A DNA stretch of 64,000 nucleotides from Desulfocicer vacuolatum DSM 3385. Lineage in GTDB: Bacteria; Desulfobacterota; Desulfobacteria; Desulfobacterales; Desulfobacteraceae. This document shows, piece by piece, positions 16,932-27,187 of this stretch. Position numbers and translations under genes: made by a program. The notes beneath the pieces are model-generated. The model saw nothing but the letters and a program-made list of their open reading frames with translations. It was not told the DNA's origin and did not search any database. Within the stretch, counting starts at the first letter, position 1, and each line of letters begins with the position of its first letter. The DNA lies in NCBI RefSeq assembly GCF_900176365.1, contig NZ_FWXY01000016.1, positions 62,001-126,000 of the forward strand. The letters are read 5' to 3'.

Positions 16932-18632
16932 ATGGCCCAGCCATTATCCTATACACTGACATTGAAAAAGACTAAAGCCGCCGCCGGTTATTTCCAGGCT
17001 GTACCGGAAAATTTTTCCCACCTGGATGAGATGCTGGCTGCTCTGCAACACGCCCCCATGGACAGTTTTCTCCACAAATGTGCTTTGGACCTTGTGGCCG
17101 AACTCGCCCCGGAAACCCTTGACAATCATATCCTTCAAGCAACAAAAAATAATAATTTTATTTTATTGAGCCTGATCTGCGAGCATCTTCTTCTCTCCCG
17201 GGGCAGAGGAAAAATCAGAGATTATTTTTCTGATCAAGAAGTAAAGGAACTTAGCACCCATTCCCCACTGATTCATCTCAGATCTGTTCTTGAACCCAAT
17301 AGACGACTGCACACCCAGTGGATTCGACTGTTCCGGGAAAATATCATGGAGCATGCCGACCTTCCCTCCCTTGGGGCATCAGGGCTGCCCCCCATCTGTT
17401 CTGGAGAGTGTCGCCCCATTGTTTCCACTGGGCTGGAAATAAAAAAAATTCACAAAAATCATCTTTATTCCAAGAATGATACCCCGCGATTCAGTGCTGA
17501 AAAAACCACGGAAACAGCTTTGGAGAGGCTGGCATCTGCCGGTGTTTTCCTGGAACAGGAAATGCGCCATCAATCAAGCTTAAGTCCCATTGCCCTGCTT
17601 AGAAAATGGCGTTTCAAGACCAGCATAGAAAATAAACGCCACTCTTTTTACCTGGGCGGAACCCAGACCAGTTACGGCAAAGGCCTGACCCTGGAAGATG
17701 CCAGGGCATCTCTTTCCATGGAGATTGTGGAACGATGCGCCTCCTTTGCTTCTGTATCAAATATGCAAGTACTGGGAACCCGAAAACAATATCCCTTGAT
17801 CCAGGGCCCCTGGTCTACCCTCATTAAACAAGGTAAAAAAGCCATTAATCCCCAGGAAATTACCCAGGAAATTACCTACCGGGATGAACCCCTCCACTGG
17901 ATAGAAGGGGAGCAGCCCGGCATCCCGGGTCCCCAAAAAATATGGCTGCCGGTGCAGGCCCTGTTTCTTTTCCTGAACCTTGATGAAATCGATCTATTCT
18001 CAGGACTTGGCTCCACGGGACTTGCCTCGGGCAATACCCTTGCCCAGGCAAAGGTTTCAGCACTTCTTGAGGTGGTGGAAAGGCACCAGGAGGGCACTGT
18101 ACCCTTTGACCCTGCCAGTTGTTTTCGCTTGGTGGCCCGGGAGGAACGTCTGGCAGCTCTTCTGGATTCCCAAAAAAACCTTGGCATTGATGTGTTGTTC
18201 CAGGATATCACCCCCCCCTCGGGGATCCCCTGCTGTAAATGTTTTGTCAAGGATGTGAACGGCGTCATCCACAAGGGCACCGCAGCCCATCTCAATGCCC
18301 GCAAAGCCATTGTATCCGCCTTGACAGAGACCCCCTACCCTTTCCCCCAGGGTCCGCCGTCACTGCCCTTTAATGAAAATTTCACCCTTGTGGGATATGA
18401 AAACCTTCCTGATTTTACCACCGGCAGCCCGAAATCTGACCTTAACTTGCTGGAAAATCTACTCATTTCCCAGAACAAAACCCCTGTTTATGTTGAGCTT
18501 ACCCGGAAAGACATGAAGATACCGGTGGTCCGGGCCATTGTGCCCGGCATGGAAATCATGGGAGATTTTGATCAATTTTCCCGGGTTCATCCAGACCTTT
18601 TCCATAATTATCTTGTCCGGGAAAACCAATAA
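16932..18632 (+). CDS. YcaO-domain protein with long N-terminal extension
   Basis: YcaO enzymes use ATP to activate backbone amides, in azoline and thioamide formation or in modification of translation factors. The C-terminal ~350 residues show the YcaO ATP-site pattern: YGKGLTLEDARASLSMEIVERC, then STGLASGNTLAQAKVSALLE with VVERHQ, and VYVELTRKDMKIPVVRAIVPG near the end. The first ~200 residues are helical with no recognised domain. No precursor peptide, dehydrogenase or TfuA-like partner is nearby, so the substrate cannot be read from context. A MITE and two A repeats sit directly upstream; no clear ribosome-binding site beyond AAAGGA 8 bases before the ATG. Confidence 0.85.
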   Translation: MAQPLSYTLTLKKTKAAAGYFQAVPENFSHLDEMLAALQHAPMDSFLHKCALDLVAELAPETLDNHILQATKNNNFILLSLICEHLLLSRGRGKIRDYFSDQEVKELSTHSPLIHLRSVLEPNRRLHTQWIRLFRENIMEHADLPSLGASGLPPICSGECRPIVSTGLEIKKIHKNHLYSKNDTPRFSAEKTTETALERLASAGVFLEQEMRHQSSLSPIALLRKWRFKTSIENKRHSFYLGGTQTSYGKGLTLEDARASLSMEIVERCASFASVSNMQVLGTRKQYPLIQGPWSTLIKQGKKAINPQEITQEITYRDEPLHWIEGEQPGIPGPQKIWLPVQALFLFLNLDEIDLFSGLGSTGLASGNTLAQAKVSALLEVVERHQEGTVPFDPASCFRLVAREERLAALLDSQKNLGIDVLFQDITPPSGIPCCKCFVKDVNGVIHKGTAAHLNARKAIVSALTETPYPFPQGPPSLPFNENFTLVGYENLPDFTTGSPKSDLNLLENLLISQNKTPVYVELTRKDMKIPVVRAIVPGMEIMGDFDQFSRVHPDLFHNYLVRENQ

Positions 18633-19168: not shown

Positions 19169-19555
19169 GCCAAAATACTCAAGTAACAAATTTAATATAT
19201 TATTTACATCCGTTGTAACCACAGTCATTGTTATTTAAGAAATTCCATCAAATTATTTACATAAAATTTCGTTTAACGCATATTTAGACTATAATATTAA
19301 GTTCAGTCTGTGAATAAAATCGTTTTTGATGTTTGCACCCCAAAAAAGGAACTTTTGTTTCTATTTTGTACATACATAATAATGTTTTCATTTTCTGACA
19401 CGTTTTTTTAAAAAATGCGTAAATCATTTTCAATGGCATATGACGGATGCCCAAAAATGTAATTTTAGTTTGTTGTTTTCGTCGATGAAAGGGAGCACTT
19501 CACAGGTTGGGGAAAAGTGAAGGCTCAGATTAACATTCAACGGAGGAAGAAAAGT

Positions 19556-20875
19556 ATGGCAGAAGCAGGTGTTGTTCAACCCGGTAGTTCAATCAAGGCA
19601 GAAGAAAAAAAAGCGGCGGCCCCGGGGGAATTGACGGCCCGATGGGGACAGCCCTTGACCGGAATTATTTCGCTGATCTGTTTTACCCTGATTGCTTGGG
19701 GATTATGGTATCTTTTAAGTGACCCCAGAGGAATTGTTAAGGCATTTCCCTATCCCTTTGTCATGTACCTGGCCATGATGATTTTGGTGGGACTTTATCA
19801 ACATATGTTTCTGGGAGACTGGCCCTTTGCCAAGTTACCCCAACCGGCCCGGGGAATTGTGGAGACCATTGTTAATCTGGGCCTGGTGTGGTTTGTCATC
19901 CACATTGTCTTTTATAAAATTTTAGGTTTAGGTTTTAATTTTTTAAGCCAGGACAACTTAGAAGCACTTGCCGCCGCAGGCCAGGCAGGCAAATTAGACT
20001 TGGCCACCATGCAGGCGAAACATTTTGCAGAAAGTGCTGTGGTCTGTTTTGTACTCATCGGTTTTTACAGCTATCCCTTTGTCACCATCTTATTTGGCAA
20101 GTGGCCGGTACAACCAAGTGATCTTTCCCAGCCCCAGGCAGGGCTTCTGGAAATCACCTGGTGCTCATTCTGGACCCTGATTTTCTACACCACACTTATC
20201 GTACCCTTCTGGGGACTGGTATATGGCAAGGCCCTGGGTGCATCCTTTGGTCTGAACACTCCCTGGTGGGGCGGCATTGCCAATTTTAATCATCTTCACT
20301 GGGTATTTGGCTGGTGGGAATGGATGATCGTTATTCTTTTCATGACCCCCAATGTATGGCGCATGAAACCCTGGAGCCTCATTGCCCTTCCCCAACCATG
20401 GAAAGGCCTTATTTCATTCATTATCAATGTAGTTGCAGCTTATATCATTGCTCTGATCTGCGTTGCCATTGCTCCTTTGTGGCTGCCCCATGATGTTATC
20501 CACCACCTGCAGGAAGCCAAACCTGAAAATGCAGAACTTTTGCGATTCTTATGGTATCACGCCGCAGAAATCGCAGGATTCACCCTTATTCCCTTTCTTA
20601 TCTGGCACCACTATTTTGACGATATGGTTCCCATGGCCGACAAGGACTCCTGGGGTGCCTTTGGTTTCAGGACCGTGGGTGTTCTCATTCTTTGTGCCAT
20701 TAACTACGTGGTATTCTACTATGTTGGCTGGGGAGACTGGGGTCTTGGTAATCCGCACTGGGATCATAAATTCACCCATGGAGAATCCCTGGTATGGAAT
20801 TTCTGGTGGATTATTCCACTGTTGTGGAATGAATGGTTCTTTCACAAATGGCCCTTTTATGTCCATGAGCATTGA
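19556..20875 (+). CDS. Polytopic membrane protein with repeated W-P-(n)-QP-x-G motifs, unknown function
   Basis: The 439-residue protein has roughly ten hydrophobic membrane spans and no signal peptide. Three similar modules recur: GDWPFAKLPQPARGIVETI, then GKWPVQPSDLSQPQAGLLEI, then MKPWSLIALPQPWKGLISF, each followed by a span, which points to internal duplication. It is rich in Trp and His (HHYFDD, WNEWFFHKWPF), including near the membrane ends. ATG 19556 is chosen because GGAGG lies 9 bases before it; a GTG 13 codons upstream has no such site. The upstream operator is shared with an acyl-CoA ligase, and another acyl-CoA ligase follows, so a link to fatty-acid uptake or metabolism is inferred. 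I do not recognise the family. Confidence 0.8.
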   Translation: MAEAGVVQPGSSIKAEEKKAAAPGELTARWGQPLTGIISLICFTLIAWGLWYLLSDPRGIVKAFPYPFVMYLAMMILVGLYQHMFLGDWPFAKLPQPARGIVETIVNLGLVWFVIHIVFYKILGLGFNFLSQDNLEALAAAGQAGKLDLATMQAKHFAESAVVCFVLIGFYSYPFVTILFGKWPVQPSDLSQPQAGLLEITWCSFWTLIFYTTLIVPFWGLVYGKALGASFGLNTPWWGGIANFNHLHWVFGWWEWMIVILFMTPNVWRMKPWSLIALPQPWKGLISFIINVVAAYIIALICVAIAPLWLPHDVIHHLQEAKPENAELLRFLWYHAAEIAGFTLIPFLIWHHYFDDMVPMADKDSWGAFGFRTVGVLILCAINYVVFYYVGWGDWGLGNPHWDHKFTHGESLVWNFWWIIPLLWNEWFFHKWPFYVHEH

Positions 20876-22758: not shown

Positions 22759-25700
22759 TCAGGGGGTGGCAGTTTCCTTATAAATTTCAAAAATTCGCTC
22801 ATGGGCCAGATAGCGGTCCCGCTCCTTATCCAGAAGATATCGCTTAATGGCATCAAGTCGACTTAAAATTTCTGCCTCCAGTATCTGTTGAAGTTCTTGC
22901 TTCACCTGGACAATCTCTTGTTTCAATTTTTTATGATTTCGTTTCACCCCATGGTAGGCCTGGGATTTGATGCGAATGCGCATTTCCACCAATTTATTGC
23001 GTTTTTCATCGTGTTCCCCGCCAAGGGATGCCACTTCAGGAATGAGATCTGCAAAATGGGTCACAGCAATGATATCTTTTCCTGCGGCCCAGTATCCCAT
23101 TAAAAACTCCGGTTCCAGATCCTTGTAATTCTGCAGGGGCATGTACATGCGCCGCAAATGAAGCAGCACTTTTTCCGTTTTTTTACGATGCCCGCCAATG
23201 ATCACCGATCCCCCCACCTCAGCCTTTCTAACCCCCTTGGTCCAGGGGGCTCCGGTGATGCCAAAATCGTTGCACAGCGGAATTCTCAACAACGCCGACA
23301 GGGTGTTTAAGGCCAGGGCATATCCCGCCGACGGCCCCCCCACATTGTAAGAGGCAGACAACAGCTGATGGTGAATGGCATACCGTTTTAAAAAATCTTC
23401 AAAAAGGCCGGCAATGTTAATGTCCCCGGAAAGCTCCTGGAGATAATTTTTCACCATGGTCAAGGCCTCCCTTGCCGACTGCCGGGTCATCTGCACGGCC
23501 AGATCCATCTGGGCCGCACTGTCCGCCGGAGAGGACACGGCCCCTGTAACCAGAATATGTTCCTGTTTTAAACGGCTGGTGAGACTGGTTGCGATGGGAA
23601 GCAAAATCCCCGTCATTTCATTGGCCCCCACCCCGATGATAAAGCCCACCTGGGCTTCCTGACTCAACTCTGCCTCCAGAAATTCATTGAGCTGCACATG
23701 TCCTTTACGCACAGGACTTTTGGAAATTTCCTTACGGGCGGACTCCAGATGGGTCTGGCCAATGGGGTACTCTTTTTCATTGTTGATGCGCTTTGCCAAT
23801 TTAAGAATGGTGGCATAGCGGCGGACAAAATGAATGGGGTCTCCCTGGATTTCCGCCTTGAGCAAAGGAGGGGCATTCATGGCATCCAGAATTCCCATGA
23901 GGGTTTTAAAATTAAATTTAATGAAATTGATCTTATCTGTTTCCGAAGAATCCTTAAGCTCTCTGAGGTTAAGAAGGACTTTATACTCCGTGGAACAAAG
24001 GGCAATGGCCTTTTCCGTAAAAGCTGAGAAATCAGCAGGACTGTTGCAGATCCCCTGGGCCGTTTCAATGATCCGCTCCACGGAGATCTGACGTCCATGG
24101 GCAATGGCGGCAAATTGTTTTTTGATGATATCGGCAATGTCCTTTTGACGCAGATGTCCGGAGACCTCAAGAACCTTAAGCCGTTTGGAGCGGATAAGGG
24201 CCGGGTCCAGAATATCCAGACGGTTGGTGGTGAGAACGGTGAACACCTTGTTCAATGGAATTTCACCATCAATGATGTTTAAAAATTTATTGGTCACCGC
24301 ATCGGAGGGAGCGCCCCCTGACGGGCTTCTCCGGGGTGCCAGGGAATCGCCTTCATCAAAAAACACCACAGCCGGCGCAATCATCTTGGCAATGTCATAC
24401 ACCCGGTCCAGGTTCGCCACCACCCCATGGATGGGATTGGTGGGATCCTGGAGGGCTGCAGGGCTTGTGGCAATGTCATGAACATGGTCACTTTCACTCA
24501 GCCAGGTGCGCACCAGAAAAGTTTTACCGCTCCCCGGGGGCCCTGTAAGCACCACGCCTTTGTCTTCACTCACTCCATAGGTGAAACAATTGTTGGCCAT
24601 CTCGCTGAATTTATCTTTGATATTGCCCACATATTCCTCCCAGGGGGCATTGCGATCCATGCGATCCACCACTTTTTTATACAATTCCCCGTACACATTC
24701 CGGGCCACCAGTTGAAAGGCATTGCGCACCAGAAAAGGATCTTCCAGCATGTCCGGTTCAAAACGCTCTTTCATGTCTATCACCGACTCCACCAGTTTTC
24801 GAACATAGGCAGGGGTTACCTTGAGACTGCGCTCCCGGAAAACACCATAAATTTTTTCCACTGTGAGATTCAGGGGGCTGTGGTCTCCGTCATCTTCCAT
24901 GGTAAGATTATGCCGTCTCAGCTCCAGCAGCACAATCTGCTTTAAATTTAAAGGGTTCATCCAGTATTCAGACACATCAATGATCCGACCCTTTTCCACA
25001 AAACGCCGATAAATGGACGGATCAAACCGATGGGCCTGGTCTGTGGTGGCCACAATAAAACAGTCCCGGGTGCCGTTCATGATCTCATCAAGTACAATAT
25101 TGGCGGTGTCAATGAGGGAACGCTGCTGACCCGAAGCCCCCATCTCCCTGCTCTCAGCCTTGCCAAAGGCGCTGTGGGCCTCTTCCACATGGCGAATGGC
25201 CGTGACCCGGGGATGTCCCATGGCCTTTCGAAAAAGATTGCCCGGTTCCCCGGCATAGGCGGTCTGATAATCATTGGGGGTGATGGTGGCGTAATCCACC
25301 ACAATTCCCCGCTCTTCAAATTGGGTAAGGTTCTCCAGAATTCTTTTTTTAAACATGCGGTTCACCAGGGGAATTCTGGAAAGCCGTCGGTAAAATCGCC
25401 GGACCCGTCCCATGGCAAGTGCCATGGCAAATTCGGGGTCCACATCTTCCAAATTGGTAAAAAGTCCTTCTTTGGCCAGGATTTCATCCCGTTTCACCCG
25501 CCAGTCAATGGTGGGAATCACCTCATCTTTAAAAATAACCTCATCAATACCCTCCTGAACAGTGGCGGTTTTACCACTGCCGCTGGCACCTTCCACCAAC
25601 AGCAAGGGAGCCTTGGGAACGTCCTGCCCGGTGAGATATTCCTTTCGAATGTGGGCCCGGTATATTTTTTCAATGATCTCTTCCACCTCCACCGGCACAT

Positions 25701-26079
25701 GGATATCGGTGAGATGGCTGTCAAGGATGGCCAGCAAATATTGACGTTCCGCCGAACTTAACTCTTTTTCAATGATTTTATTCCACGATTTTCCCGGATG
25801 GGTTTCGCCGGAATACCTGAAACGTTTTTTCCAGTCAGTGAGGATATCAGGATCATTTAACACATGCATACGCCTGTTTTTCCGCCGTAAAAAAAACAAC
25901 CGGAAAAAAGCCGCCTTTATCCATTTAAATATCCGGGAACCGGGCTGATATTGATTCAACCGAGCCCTCATAAAGGCCCGGGTTTCATGGGACCAGGAAT
26001 CCACCAGACGATCAATGCGTTCTATTTGTGTTTCAGGGAGACGAATGTGGGTTTTCTCTTTGGTCAGCCGTCTTGGCAT
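22759..26079 (-). CDS. Double AAA+ / Lon-like protease fusion
   Basis: The 1106-residue protein starts with ~150 residues containing an aromatic/basic patch (residues 51-69, possible membrane contact). AAA+ module 1 has Walker A GASGSGKT (164-171) but a degenerate Walker B. AAA+ module 2 has Walker A GPPGSGKT (513-520), Walker B VVFFDEGD (571-578) and sensor TTNR (617-620). A Lon-like protease domain follows with the nucleophile Ser917 in GGPSAGYALALN and a candidate catalytic Lys967 in GGHRKK, the spacing of archaeal-type LonB (GGVTPK) rather than LonA. A C-terminal coiled coil follows. It lacks the LonA substrate domain. The SPFH gene lies 149 bases upstream on the same strand, suggesting a membrane protease complex comparable to FtsH with HflK/HflC. 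Substrates are unknown. Confidence 0.85.
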   Translation of the reverse strand: MPRRLTKEKTHIRLPETQIERIDRLVDSWSHETRAFMRARLNQYQPGSRIFKWIKAAFFRLFFLRRKNRRMHVLNDPDILTDWKKRFRYSGETHPGKSWNKIIEKELSSAERQYLLAILDSHLTDIHVPVEVEEIIEKIYRAHIRKEYLTGQDVPKAPLLLVEGASGSGKTATVQEGIDEVIFKDEVIPTIDWRVKRDEILAKEGLFTNLEDVDPEFAMALAMGRVRRFYRRLSRIPLVNRMFKKRILENLTQFEERGIVVDYATITPNDYQTAYAGEPGNLFRKAMGHPRVTAIRHVEEAHSAFGKAESREMGASGQQRSLIDTANIVLDEIMNGTRDCFIVATTDQAHRFDPSIYRRFVEKGRIIDVSEYWMNPLNLKQIVLLELRRHNLTMEDDGDHSPLNLTVEKIYGVFRERSLKVTPAYVRKLVESVIDMKERFEPDMLEDPFLVRNAFQLVARNVYGELYKKVVDRMDRNAPWEEYVGNIKDKFSEMANNCFTYGVSEDKGVVLTGPPGSGKTFLVRTWLSESDHVHDIATSPAALQDPTNPIHGVVANLDRVYDIAKMIAPAVVFFDEGDSLAPRRSPSGGAPSDAVTNKFLNIIDGEIPLNKVFTVLTTNRLDILDPALIRSKRLKVLEVSGHLRQKDIADIIKKQFAAIAHGRQISVERIIETAQGICNSPADFSAFTEKAIALCSTEYKVLLNLRELKDSSETDKINFIKFNFKTLMGILDAMNAPPLLKAEIQGDPIHFVRRYATILKLAKRINNEKEYPIGQTHLESARKEISKSPVRKGHVQLNEFLEAELSQEAQVGFIIGVGANEMTGILLPIATSLTSRLKQEHILVTGAVSSPADSAAQMDLAVQMTRQSAREALTMVKNYLQELSGDINIAGLFEDFLKRYAIHHQLLSASYNVGGPSAGYALALNTLSALLRIPLCNDFGITGAPWTKGVRKAEVGGSVIIGGHRKKTEKVLLHLRRMYMPLQNYKDLEPEFLMGYWAAGKDIIAVTHFADLIPEVASLGGEHDEKRNKLVEMRIRIKSQAYHGVKRNHKKLKQEIVQVKQELQQILEAEILSRLDAIKRYLLDKERDRYLAHERIFEIYKETATP

Positions 26080-26227
26080 GGAATACCTCCGGAAAGTATT
26101 GTGGGTGTCATACCCGACACGTGCATCCCCTATTGAAGCAAATACAATCTGAATCCGTGATTACAACATGCAGGTAACAGTTACCCAAACAATAAAATAC
26201 CATGGGTGAAATCCTTTGTTGGAATGC

Positions 26228-27187
26228 TTATTTATCCAACACCTTGTTTTCTTGTTTCACCGGGGTGCATTTCACGGGATCAGGTGGAAGGGTCAGGGCT
26301 GGAACTATCCCGCTGTCATGCATCACAAAGGTTTTTTGTCCGGTCTGGTTGGCATAGGCCGTGGCCCATTTCTGCTGGGTTAAAAACTGCAAAAGATCCG
26401 TACTGATCCCCTGTTCTTCTCCCCCCAAAGCATCCTGGAGAGAGCTGATACTGTCAAGATAGGCCTTATACAGTTTACGAATGCGGTCAGCCTCCTGATC
26501 TGCGGCATAATTGGCGGCCTCGGCAATGAGCTCCCTTCGTTTTTTCTCCTCTGTGGCCTCCACCAACTTATCGCCGAATCGGGTTTCCCGGAGCACAAAA
26601 CTGACCACCTCCATACCGTATTTTTCTTCCAGGGTGGGACCGTTTTCATTAATGGGTCGGGATTTTAATGCATTAAAAATTTTTTCCTTAATCTGTTCCC
26701 GGTCACTGATGAGGCTGTCCACCTTCTGGGCCTGGAGAATATCCTTGACAATACCGTCAAAATCGCCCTGGAGCAGATCCCGGGGAAAAAGATTTTCTAT
26801 GGCCCACACCTTGAGATTGTTAATGCGGTAGGTGAGCACCGCCGAGGTCCACAAGGCAACATTTTCTTTGGAAATAATGCGCATGGGTTCCATGGTGTTA
26901 CCAAGATAAAGGCTCTGGTTCATCAGGGGCACATCCTGCTCTATGCGCGTAAAAAAAGGAAGCCTGGCGTGCCATCCCACCTTGGTCACAGCCTTTCTTG
27001 TGCCGTTGAGCTGCTCTATGACCATGGCATAGTTGAGTTTCACCTTGTAAATCACCCGGGTGGAATAAATGATGGCCACAAGGCTGTAAAGGGTGGCAAA
27101 AACAAATAAAAAAAACATGAGCCTGCGAAGAAAAATTCCCACCCGTGCCCGCTGGAGAAAAATGGGTACTGCCTTTTCATCCGTCAT
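26228..27187 (-). CDS. Membrane-anchored SPFH/Band 7 protein (HflC/prohibitin-like)
   Basis: The 319-residue protein has one N-terminal membrane span (LMFFLFVFATLYSLVAIIYS, residues ~22-41), an SPFH domain with the typical GWHARLPFFTRIEQDVPLMN and VALWTSAVLTYRINN segments, and a long helical/coiled-coil stretch (KLVEATEEKKRRELIAEAAN). This is the topology of HflC and prohibitins, which form large rings around membrane proteases. The start is 27187, preceded by AAGGAG; the 20 residues further upstream come from a family A repeat. It is encoded directly upstream of the double-AAA+ Lon-like protease, which makes it the likely membrane scaffold of that protease. Confidence 0.88.
   Translation of the reverse strand: MTDEKAVPIFLQRARVGIFLRRLMFFLFVFATLYSLVAIIYSTRVIYKVKLNYAMVIEQLNGTRKAVTKVGWHARLPFFTRIEQDVPLMNQSLYLGNTMEPMRIISKENVALWTSAVLTYRINNLKVWAIENLFPRDLLQGDFDGIVKDILQAQKVDSLISDREQIKEKIFNALKSRPINENGPTLEEKYGMEVVSFVLRETRFGDKLVEATEEKKRRELIAEAANYAADQEADRIRKLYKAYLDSISSLQDALGGEEQGISTDLLQFLTQQKWATAYANQTGQKTFVMHDSGIVPALTLPPDPVKCTPVKQENKVLDK

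Follow-up and report, generated by a model that had tools for sequence, protein, structure and literature searches.

Co-occurrence of a double-AAA Lon-like protease gene with a dedicated SPFH protein gene in Desulfobacterota

Why SPFH cages and AAA proteases go together is not settled, and the question has mostly been investigated in FtsH-HflKC and its mitochondrial relatives. According to the available parts of the sources, the SPFH domain of HflK/C is periplasmic and YbbK/QmcA is oriented otherwise (PMC2636767, PMC10434171), and two-gene units of an SPFH protein and a serine protease occur as NfeD1b (ClpP domain)-SPFH1b and SPFH5 operons, e.g., PH1510-PH1511 (PMC2636767, PMC13086221). Here, we analyzed a window of 64,000 nucleotides from Desulfocicer vacuolatum DSM 3385 (NZ_FWXY01000016.1, positions 62,001 to 126,000; within contig 25 of the source genome G000, 5.04 Mb), in which two genes encode an SPFH (Band_7) protein and a double-AAA Lon-like protease. 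We establish that the two form a gene pair with fixed domain order, constant key residues, and joint inheritance. We consider it fairly probable that they constitute a two-gene system, in which a cytosolic, hexameric, two-tiered AAA unfoldase fused to a Lon-type Ser-Lys peptidase would act together with a dedicated SPFH partner that recruits it to the inner membrane; the ATPase and protease activities, the hexamer, the physical binding, the topology, and the substrates are what we infer from the data below. No description of such a pair was found among the open-access papers listed, a scope outside which most subscription papers and all bioRxiv preprints lie. A survey of SPFH proteins in prokaryotes from 2009 reports operons that contain NfeD or a ClpP-type NfeD, and its main text does not use the word Lon (PMC2636767); a 2008 survey of serine proteases in prokaryotes gives Lon_C architectures, and AAA-AAA-Lon_C is not among its available table rows (PMC2605481); and the available text of a P. 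aeruginosa SPFH paper mentions NfeD partners, with Lon absent as a word (PMC13086221).

Among the 389 genomes of the class (thresholds: protease, E 1e-100; SPFH subfamily, E 1e-8), the protease was found in 103 and the SPFH subfamily in 96, and 95 had both where 25 were expected (hypergeometric value, 6e-80, with relatedness ignored). The pair was adjacent on the same strand in 94 of these 95 genomes, with the matched ends -10 to +225 bases apart; in the remaining genome (G867), the two genes lay on different contigs. The SPFH subfamily without the protease was seen only in G1016 (a protein fragment of 66 residues), and G807 had two protease copies, each with its own SPFH gene. In the phylum sample (395 genomes), the protease search matched 40 genomes, from which 28 with AAA-only matches were set aside, and the same 12 genomes carried the protease and the SPFH subfamily. 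The protease or a fragment of it was present in 46 of the 277 genomes of the class of G262, where the SPFH gene was checked only via the loci of the 68-locus set (see below). At the level of individual loci, the SPFH gene was directly upstream on the same strand in all 66 loci in which the start of the protease is included (63 genome_contigs loci, L013, L018, and the window); 8 more genome_contigs loci, whose contigs start within the protease gene, are not counted in the 66. Likewise, it preceded the protease in 12/12 and 68/68 best-scoring loci of the whole-genome searches, of which the 68 include the 12 and overlap in genomes with the 66. An earlier note on this DNA had named a lack of conserved adjacency in related genomes as grounds against its proposal; adjacency was conserved in the 66 and the 68 loci and in the 94 genomes.

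These whole-genome searches were centred within the phylum (Desulfobacterota). A scan of genome_contigs with short exact peptide patterns gave 72 loci, the titles of which were Desulfobacterota groups, Deltaproteobacteria, or unassigned (e.g., "Proteobacteria bacterium" and "bacterium"); one of them, L091, was set aside, having no protease frame above 200 bits. The viral contigs contained one relative as judged by the search tool, with coverage limited to residues 506-640, and none of the 316 matching plasmid records covered 80% of the query. Assignment to a defence system was rejected: PADLOC matches to 7 families, among them IetA (the best, E 4.5e-11), TRIP13, and mad8, were over the AAA regions or weak, and neighbouring defence genes were not sought.

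Operon-like spacing by itself is no proof of contact, and the two proteins could share regulation or a pathway (e.g., envelope stress) and never touch. We regard this as quite unlikely, given the near-exclusive co-occurrence in the class and the phylum sample, the private SPFH subfamily (see below), and the lack of a widely common third gene: beyond the pair, the most common neighbour families were each present in 14 of the 66 loci (many of which have flanks shorter than 10 kb; with the simple gene caller used, the SPFH gene was called in 60/66 and the protease gene in 65/66), and the only other window-gene family in at least 8 loci was that of AMP-binding length, which occurred in 8 loci without a fixed position.

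For the SPFH protein, the Band_7 match (PF01145, E 2.2e-16) placed it in the SPFH superfamily; sequence matches were to stomatin entries only (9 rows, E 0.005 or weaker), and the fold of the structure model matched human stomatin, HflK/C, prohibitin, and QmcA chains. The one-span SPFH protein that the earlier note had placed upstream on the same strand was thus recovered: past residue 60, no 19-residue stretch exceeded 1.17 in any of the 66 SPFH members, leaving the hydrophobic span of Table 1 as the only one. A private SPFH profile scored its own protein at 554 bits and the other SPFH proteins of the genome (four matches, two of them in tandem on C63) at 8.2 bits or less. Judged by this profile, the SPFH subfamily is private to this two-gene unit. 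The tandem pair, which would be HflK/C from its order and lengths, scored 7.8-8.2 bits, giving no sign of orthology between the present protein and HflK/HflC (SPFH3). An AAA+ protease-SPFH pairing separate from FtsH-HflKC, as put forward in the earlier note, is supported by the conserved adjacency, with an HflK/HflC-like tandem present in the genome besides.

The charge flanking the span points to the orientation. The N-terminal flank was more positive than the C-terminal one in 96 of 105 members, equal in 7, and less positive in 2 (with another flank definition: 59, 6, and 1 of 66); R13 and K48 were present in 105/105, and residue 21 was Arg/Lys. By flank charge, the SPFH domain is probably periplasmic, as in HflK/C. 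This orientation bears on another explanation, in which the SPFH protein would be a substrate or inhibitor of the protease, which would trim its C-terminus or turn it over by analogy with the ClpP-like NfeD protein PH1510, reported in the available part of PMC13086221 to cut the stomatin PH1511. The strong conservation of the SPFH C-terminal segment would fit such trimming, but it would also be expected from cage closure, and the C-terminus would be beyond the reach of a cytosolic protease if the domain is periplasmic; we hold this explanation to be unlikely.

The motor of the protease was examined with an alignment of 97 non-redundant sequences including that of the window, based on 61 full-length sequences (58 genome_contigs loci, L013, L018, and the window) and long matches in L093-L104 and L148-L203; sequences that did not differ within residues 101-280 were removed, as were shorter fragments. 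The lowest identity to the window protease was 47%. The open reading frame and Pfam bear out the earlier description of a 1106-residue protein with two AAA modules (PF00004, E 8.8e-23, 2 stretches) and a Lon S16 domain, and the Walker A motifs, Ser917, and Lys967 had been placed correctly, the key residues being constant in 97/97 relatives. Besides the residues of the Lon domain, those constant in 97/97 were K170, E299, E300, K519, D575, E576, R630, and R633, and R358 was present in 96/97. In the pore-loop-like motif of module 1, residue 275 was L/W/Y/F, 276 was A/S, and Gly277 was constant (97/97); in that of module 2, residue 550 was hydrophobic, 551 was E/H/D, and Gly552 was present in 96/97. 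By p97 numbering, R630 and R633 are presumably the arginine fingers, and module 1 would retain the first finger without the second. The suggestion that module 1 is a degenerate docking unit was not borne out, since its motifs are constant save for the Asp-to-Glu change and the catalytic-type Glu is kept.

Module 2 was covered by the Cdc48, proteasome-activating nucleotidase, and FtsH models of NCBIfam, and its sequence matches in PDB were p97/Cdc48-type chains; module 1 alone had no PDB match at E 0.01 (phmmer). The Cdc48 family model TIGR01243 gave 80.3 bits (cut-off, 802.65). No Lon-type AAA module was detected by sequence, the best stretch of TIGR00763 (full-length Lon) covering only residues 766-988, and no FtsH M41 zinc domain was detected by TIGR01241, which matched the AAA part only (505-710; profile 195-398 of 598); Lon_C occupies the C-terminal place where FtsH has its M41 zinc domain. 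Foldseek with the AlphaFold model of the protease placed Cdc48/p97 on top, with a TM-score by query of 0.18-0.27 among the 50 matches listed, which is low for the model length. With VIA-align, the best row was the proteasome ATPase 9e8k_E (Z 21.3, 255 residues, root-mean-square deviation (rmsd) 3.4), and the NVL match spanned both modules (Z 19.5, rmsd 8.4, 454 residues). Because the sequence and fold of module 2 match Cdc48/p97/Rpt, the motor is, on these models, a classical AAA tandem rather than a Lon motor, with module 2 Cdc48/Rpt-like rather than Lon-like. Separately, the same genome has a 745-residue frame with two AAA matches (G000:C50:13715-14935, minus strand), a Cdc48-like double-AAA protein that lacks the Lon part and may be related to the motor.

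For the Lon domain, Lon_C (PF05362) matched residues 798-972 with E 4.5e-6 and 26.8 bits (cut-off, 21.1), assigning it to S16, and hhalign against a three-sequence LonA profile gave a probability of 96% (E 1.5e-9, 197 columns). The residue before Ser917 was P916 in 97/97, which is the A-type signature; LonB carries an Asp there, according to the available part of PMC9569914, and that Asp was found in none of the 97. Between Ser917 and Lys967 there were 49 residues in 97/97, compared with exactly 42 between the catalytic Ser and Lys of LonA and LonB in the same source. The earlier note had likened the Lys spacing to that of archaeal LonB; as the spacing is 49 and not 42, the argument from spacing for an archaeal LonB origin fails, and the GGxxxK register of the candidate Lys is the sole remaining LonB-like trait. 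The extra residues fall ahead of GGHRKK in the alignments to LonB and LonA. With phmmer, the VTQK lysine of the archaeal LonB 1z0b was aligned with K967, and with hhalign, the GGLK lysine of LonA was aligned with residue 965, which is variable (R 58, K 30, H 4, Q 2, and others of 97); K970 was present in 95/97. K967 is preferred over residue 965 as the candidate catalytic Lys because it never varies. The active site may be a hybrid with a new spacing, or a different Lys may be used; the data permit either. The protease model had a predicted local distance difference test score (pLDDT) below 50 at 788-864, 901-914, 940-959, and 962-989, i.e., in much of the surroundings of Ser917 and Lys967, and the VIA-align rows mostly cover 168-793, so that the Lon domain was hardly probed by that fold comparison. 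The weak Lon_C score, the long Ser-Lys spacing, and the extra residues ahead of the Lys helix would be compatible with an inactive, structural Lon domain in a Cdc48-like unfoldase or disaggregase. We judge this quite unlikely, since the constancy of Ser917 (GGPSAG) and Lys967 is difficult to account for without catalysis.

Judged by hydropathy only, the protease has no evident transmembrane helix and looks soluble: some 19-residue stretch above 1.6 was present in 28 of 61 members, and the 8 highest, at 818-821 or 928, fall within the protease domain. Residues 46-66 are a lead, not proof, for peripheral membrane contact. Basic residues follow this segment in the 13 sequences printed, an aromatic residue was present in the best 14-residue stretch of the region in 94/97, and the mean segment score over the 97 was matched by 4.0% of control stretches from the same proteins. 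The N-terminal 124 residues had no Pfam match at E 10 in 6/6 members tried, a search that a diverged LON N-domain could escape. As a separate observation, residues 1-45 (25945-26079, minus strand) have a conserved strand-helix-helix outline from near R-L-P-E, ribbon-helix-helix-like by eye and without Pfam support.

In the mechanism that we propose for the two-gene system, the one-span SPFH subunits would form a ring or cage, the protease would dock from the cytosol via the conserved N-terminal tail of the SPFH protein and its own residues 46-66, membrane or near-membrane substrates would be drawn through rings 1 and 2, and the Lon chamber would cut them. Given an apparently soluble protease and a probably periplasmic SPFH domain, the two proteins would touch through the SPFH N-terminal tail and the N-terminal region of the protease; this contact is the weakest step of the mechanism.

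Several points weigh against such a system. A periplasmic SPFH domain would leave a tail of only about 20 residues to a cytosolic protease. The confidence of the models was limited (SPFH: pLDDT 71.0 and predicted template modelling score (pTM) 0.51; protease, with 59 alignment rows: mean pLDDT 69.5 and pTM 0.53). With Lys967 as the base, the Ser-Lys spacing exceeds by 7 residues the value of LonA and LonB in the available part of PMC9569914. With hhalign, the Lon domain gave nothing against the LonB-like, RadA-like, and ComM-like proteins of its own genome taken singly (E 0.6-0.8). The genome searches scored only the best few candidates per genome (2 for the protease and up to 5 for SPFH), and 8 genomes had the protease without an SPFH match; the matches begin at a contig start in three of these (G005, G010, and G849), and four others are G835, G927, G929, and G1023. 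In the eighth, the near-complete genome G727, the sole protease match is a 198-residue remnant (C1:453330-453923) and the SPFH gene is absent too, which suggests that the two were lost together. Another near-complete genome has a short remnant or partial copy of the protease region (G770:C2:1417938-1418927). The alternatives given above are partly compatible with each other and with the two-gene system.

The features of the pair are given in Table 1. The SPFH frame is open up to TTG 27247; the chosen start, ATG 27187, is preceded by an AAAGGAG ribosome-like site, and the protease start, ATG 26079, by CGGAGG. Across the 66 loci, the gap between the two genes was -29 to +148 bases, with overlap in 23/66; that of the window is the largest. 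A Dus-type protein is encoded upstream of the pair and an AMP-binding enzyme downstream (convergent), and the closest homologues were from metagenome-assembled genomes named Desulfobacterium and Desulfobacula. Elsewhere in the window, a 566-residue protein (16932-18632, plus strand) carries a kinase domain of the YcaO type, with TIGR00702 at 75.7 bits against a cut-off of 75.65 and with TIGR03266 and TIGR03604 under their cut-offs, and a 452-residue protein (19517-20875, plus strand) is membrane-like and Trp/His-rich by eye, with no NCBIfam match and a weak Pfam match (PsaX, E 0.18).

Table 1. Features of the gene pair (positions in the whole 64,000-nucleotide window).
Feature	Position	Strand	Evidence or remark
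SPFH (Band_7) protein, 319 amino acids, first gene of the pair	26228..27187	-	PF01145 match; homologue directly upstream in 66/66 loci
Single hydrophobic span, residues 23-41	27065..27121	-	N-flank more positive than C-flank
SPFH domain, residues 48-233	26489..27046	-	Band_7; fold matches stomatin, HflK/C, prohibitin
Conserved C-terminal segment, residues 268-301	26285..26386	-	Q271, W274, Y278, T286 each 105/105
Intergenic gap, 148 bases	26080..26227	-	Ribosome-like site ahead of second gene
Double-AAA Lon-like protease, 1106 amino acids, second gene	22759..26079	-	Open reading frame, Pfam, 97-sequence alignment
Hydrophobic/amphipathic segment then basic residues, residues 46-66	25882..25944	-	Candidate peripheral membrane contact
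AAA module 1, about residues 125-440	24760..25707	-	
Walker A, module 1, residues 164-171	25567..25590	-	K170 97/97
Walker B, module 1, residues 295-300	25180..25197	-	Glu-Glu replacing Asp-Glu
AAA module 2, about residues 480-735	23875..24642	-	Cdc48/Rpt-like
Walker A, module 2, residues 513-520	24520..24543	-	
Walker B, module 2, residues 571-576	24352..24369	-	D575, E576
Putative arginine-finger pair, module 2, R630 and R633	24181..24192	-	97/97
Lon S16 protease domain, about residues 798-1015	23035..23688	-	
Predicted catalytic Ser917 in GGPSAG	23329..23331	-	97/97
Candidate catalytic Lys967	23179..23181	-	97/97

The pair, which sulfate reducers and their relatives retain as a unit, may represent a second, independent coupling of scaffolds to proteases at membranes. 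With a little less than even confidence, we further propose that it is another class of SPFH-coupled protease, in which a Cdc48-type double-ring unfoldase, a Lon protease of new active-site geometry, and a private SPFH scaffold would extract and degrade membrane proteins independently of FtsH-HflKC in Desulfobacterota. If so, the contribution of SPFH could be told apart from that of FtsH by means of a second pair in which the motor and the active site differ and the protease is soluble. The protease would also be a natural fusion of a Cdc48-like motor with a protease, showing that a classical AAA motor is able to drive a Lon chamber. The genome also encodes three LonA-like proteins and one LonB-like protein, as well as a 675-residue frame with an AAA match, a length usual for FtsH.

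Among known systems, the pair would be analogous to FtsH-HflK/C but would combine motor, active site, and membrane anchoring in another way. FtsH-HflK/HflC and the m-AAA-prohibitin systems likewise combine an AAA-type protease, with a motor of the classical AAA clade, and a one-span SPFH protein; here, by contrast, there are two AAA modules, a Ser-Lys Lon domain replaces the zinc domain, the protease has no evident transmembrane helix whereas FtsH is membrane-spanning, and a single SPFH gene is directly adjacent. The NfeD-SPFH operons have ClpP-class proteases, whereas the present protease is an AAA-Lon fusion and only SPFH is widely common beside it. The Cdc48/p97 and NVL/Rix7 proteins have two classical AAA modules in tandem, as here, whereas module 1 here differs in its Glu-Glu Walker B and, by p97 numbering, would lack the second Arg finger; none of them is known to have a fused protease. 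LonB has a membrane-anchoring insert in its AAA module, together with the Asp before Ser and the 42-residue spacing (PMC9569914, available part); the candidate Lys shares the GGxxxK register with archaeal LonB, and the A-type Ser motif in an unusual background is shared with firmicute LonBA. With LonA, the protease shares the S16 domain and the Pro before the catalytic Ser, and differs from it in the Cdc48/Rpt-like module 2, the two modules, the 49-residue spacing, the GGxxxK Lys register, and a LON N-domain that was not found here.

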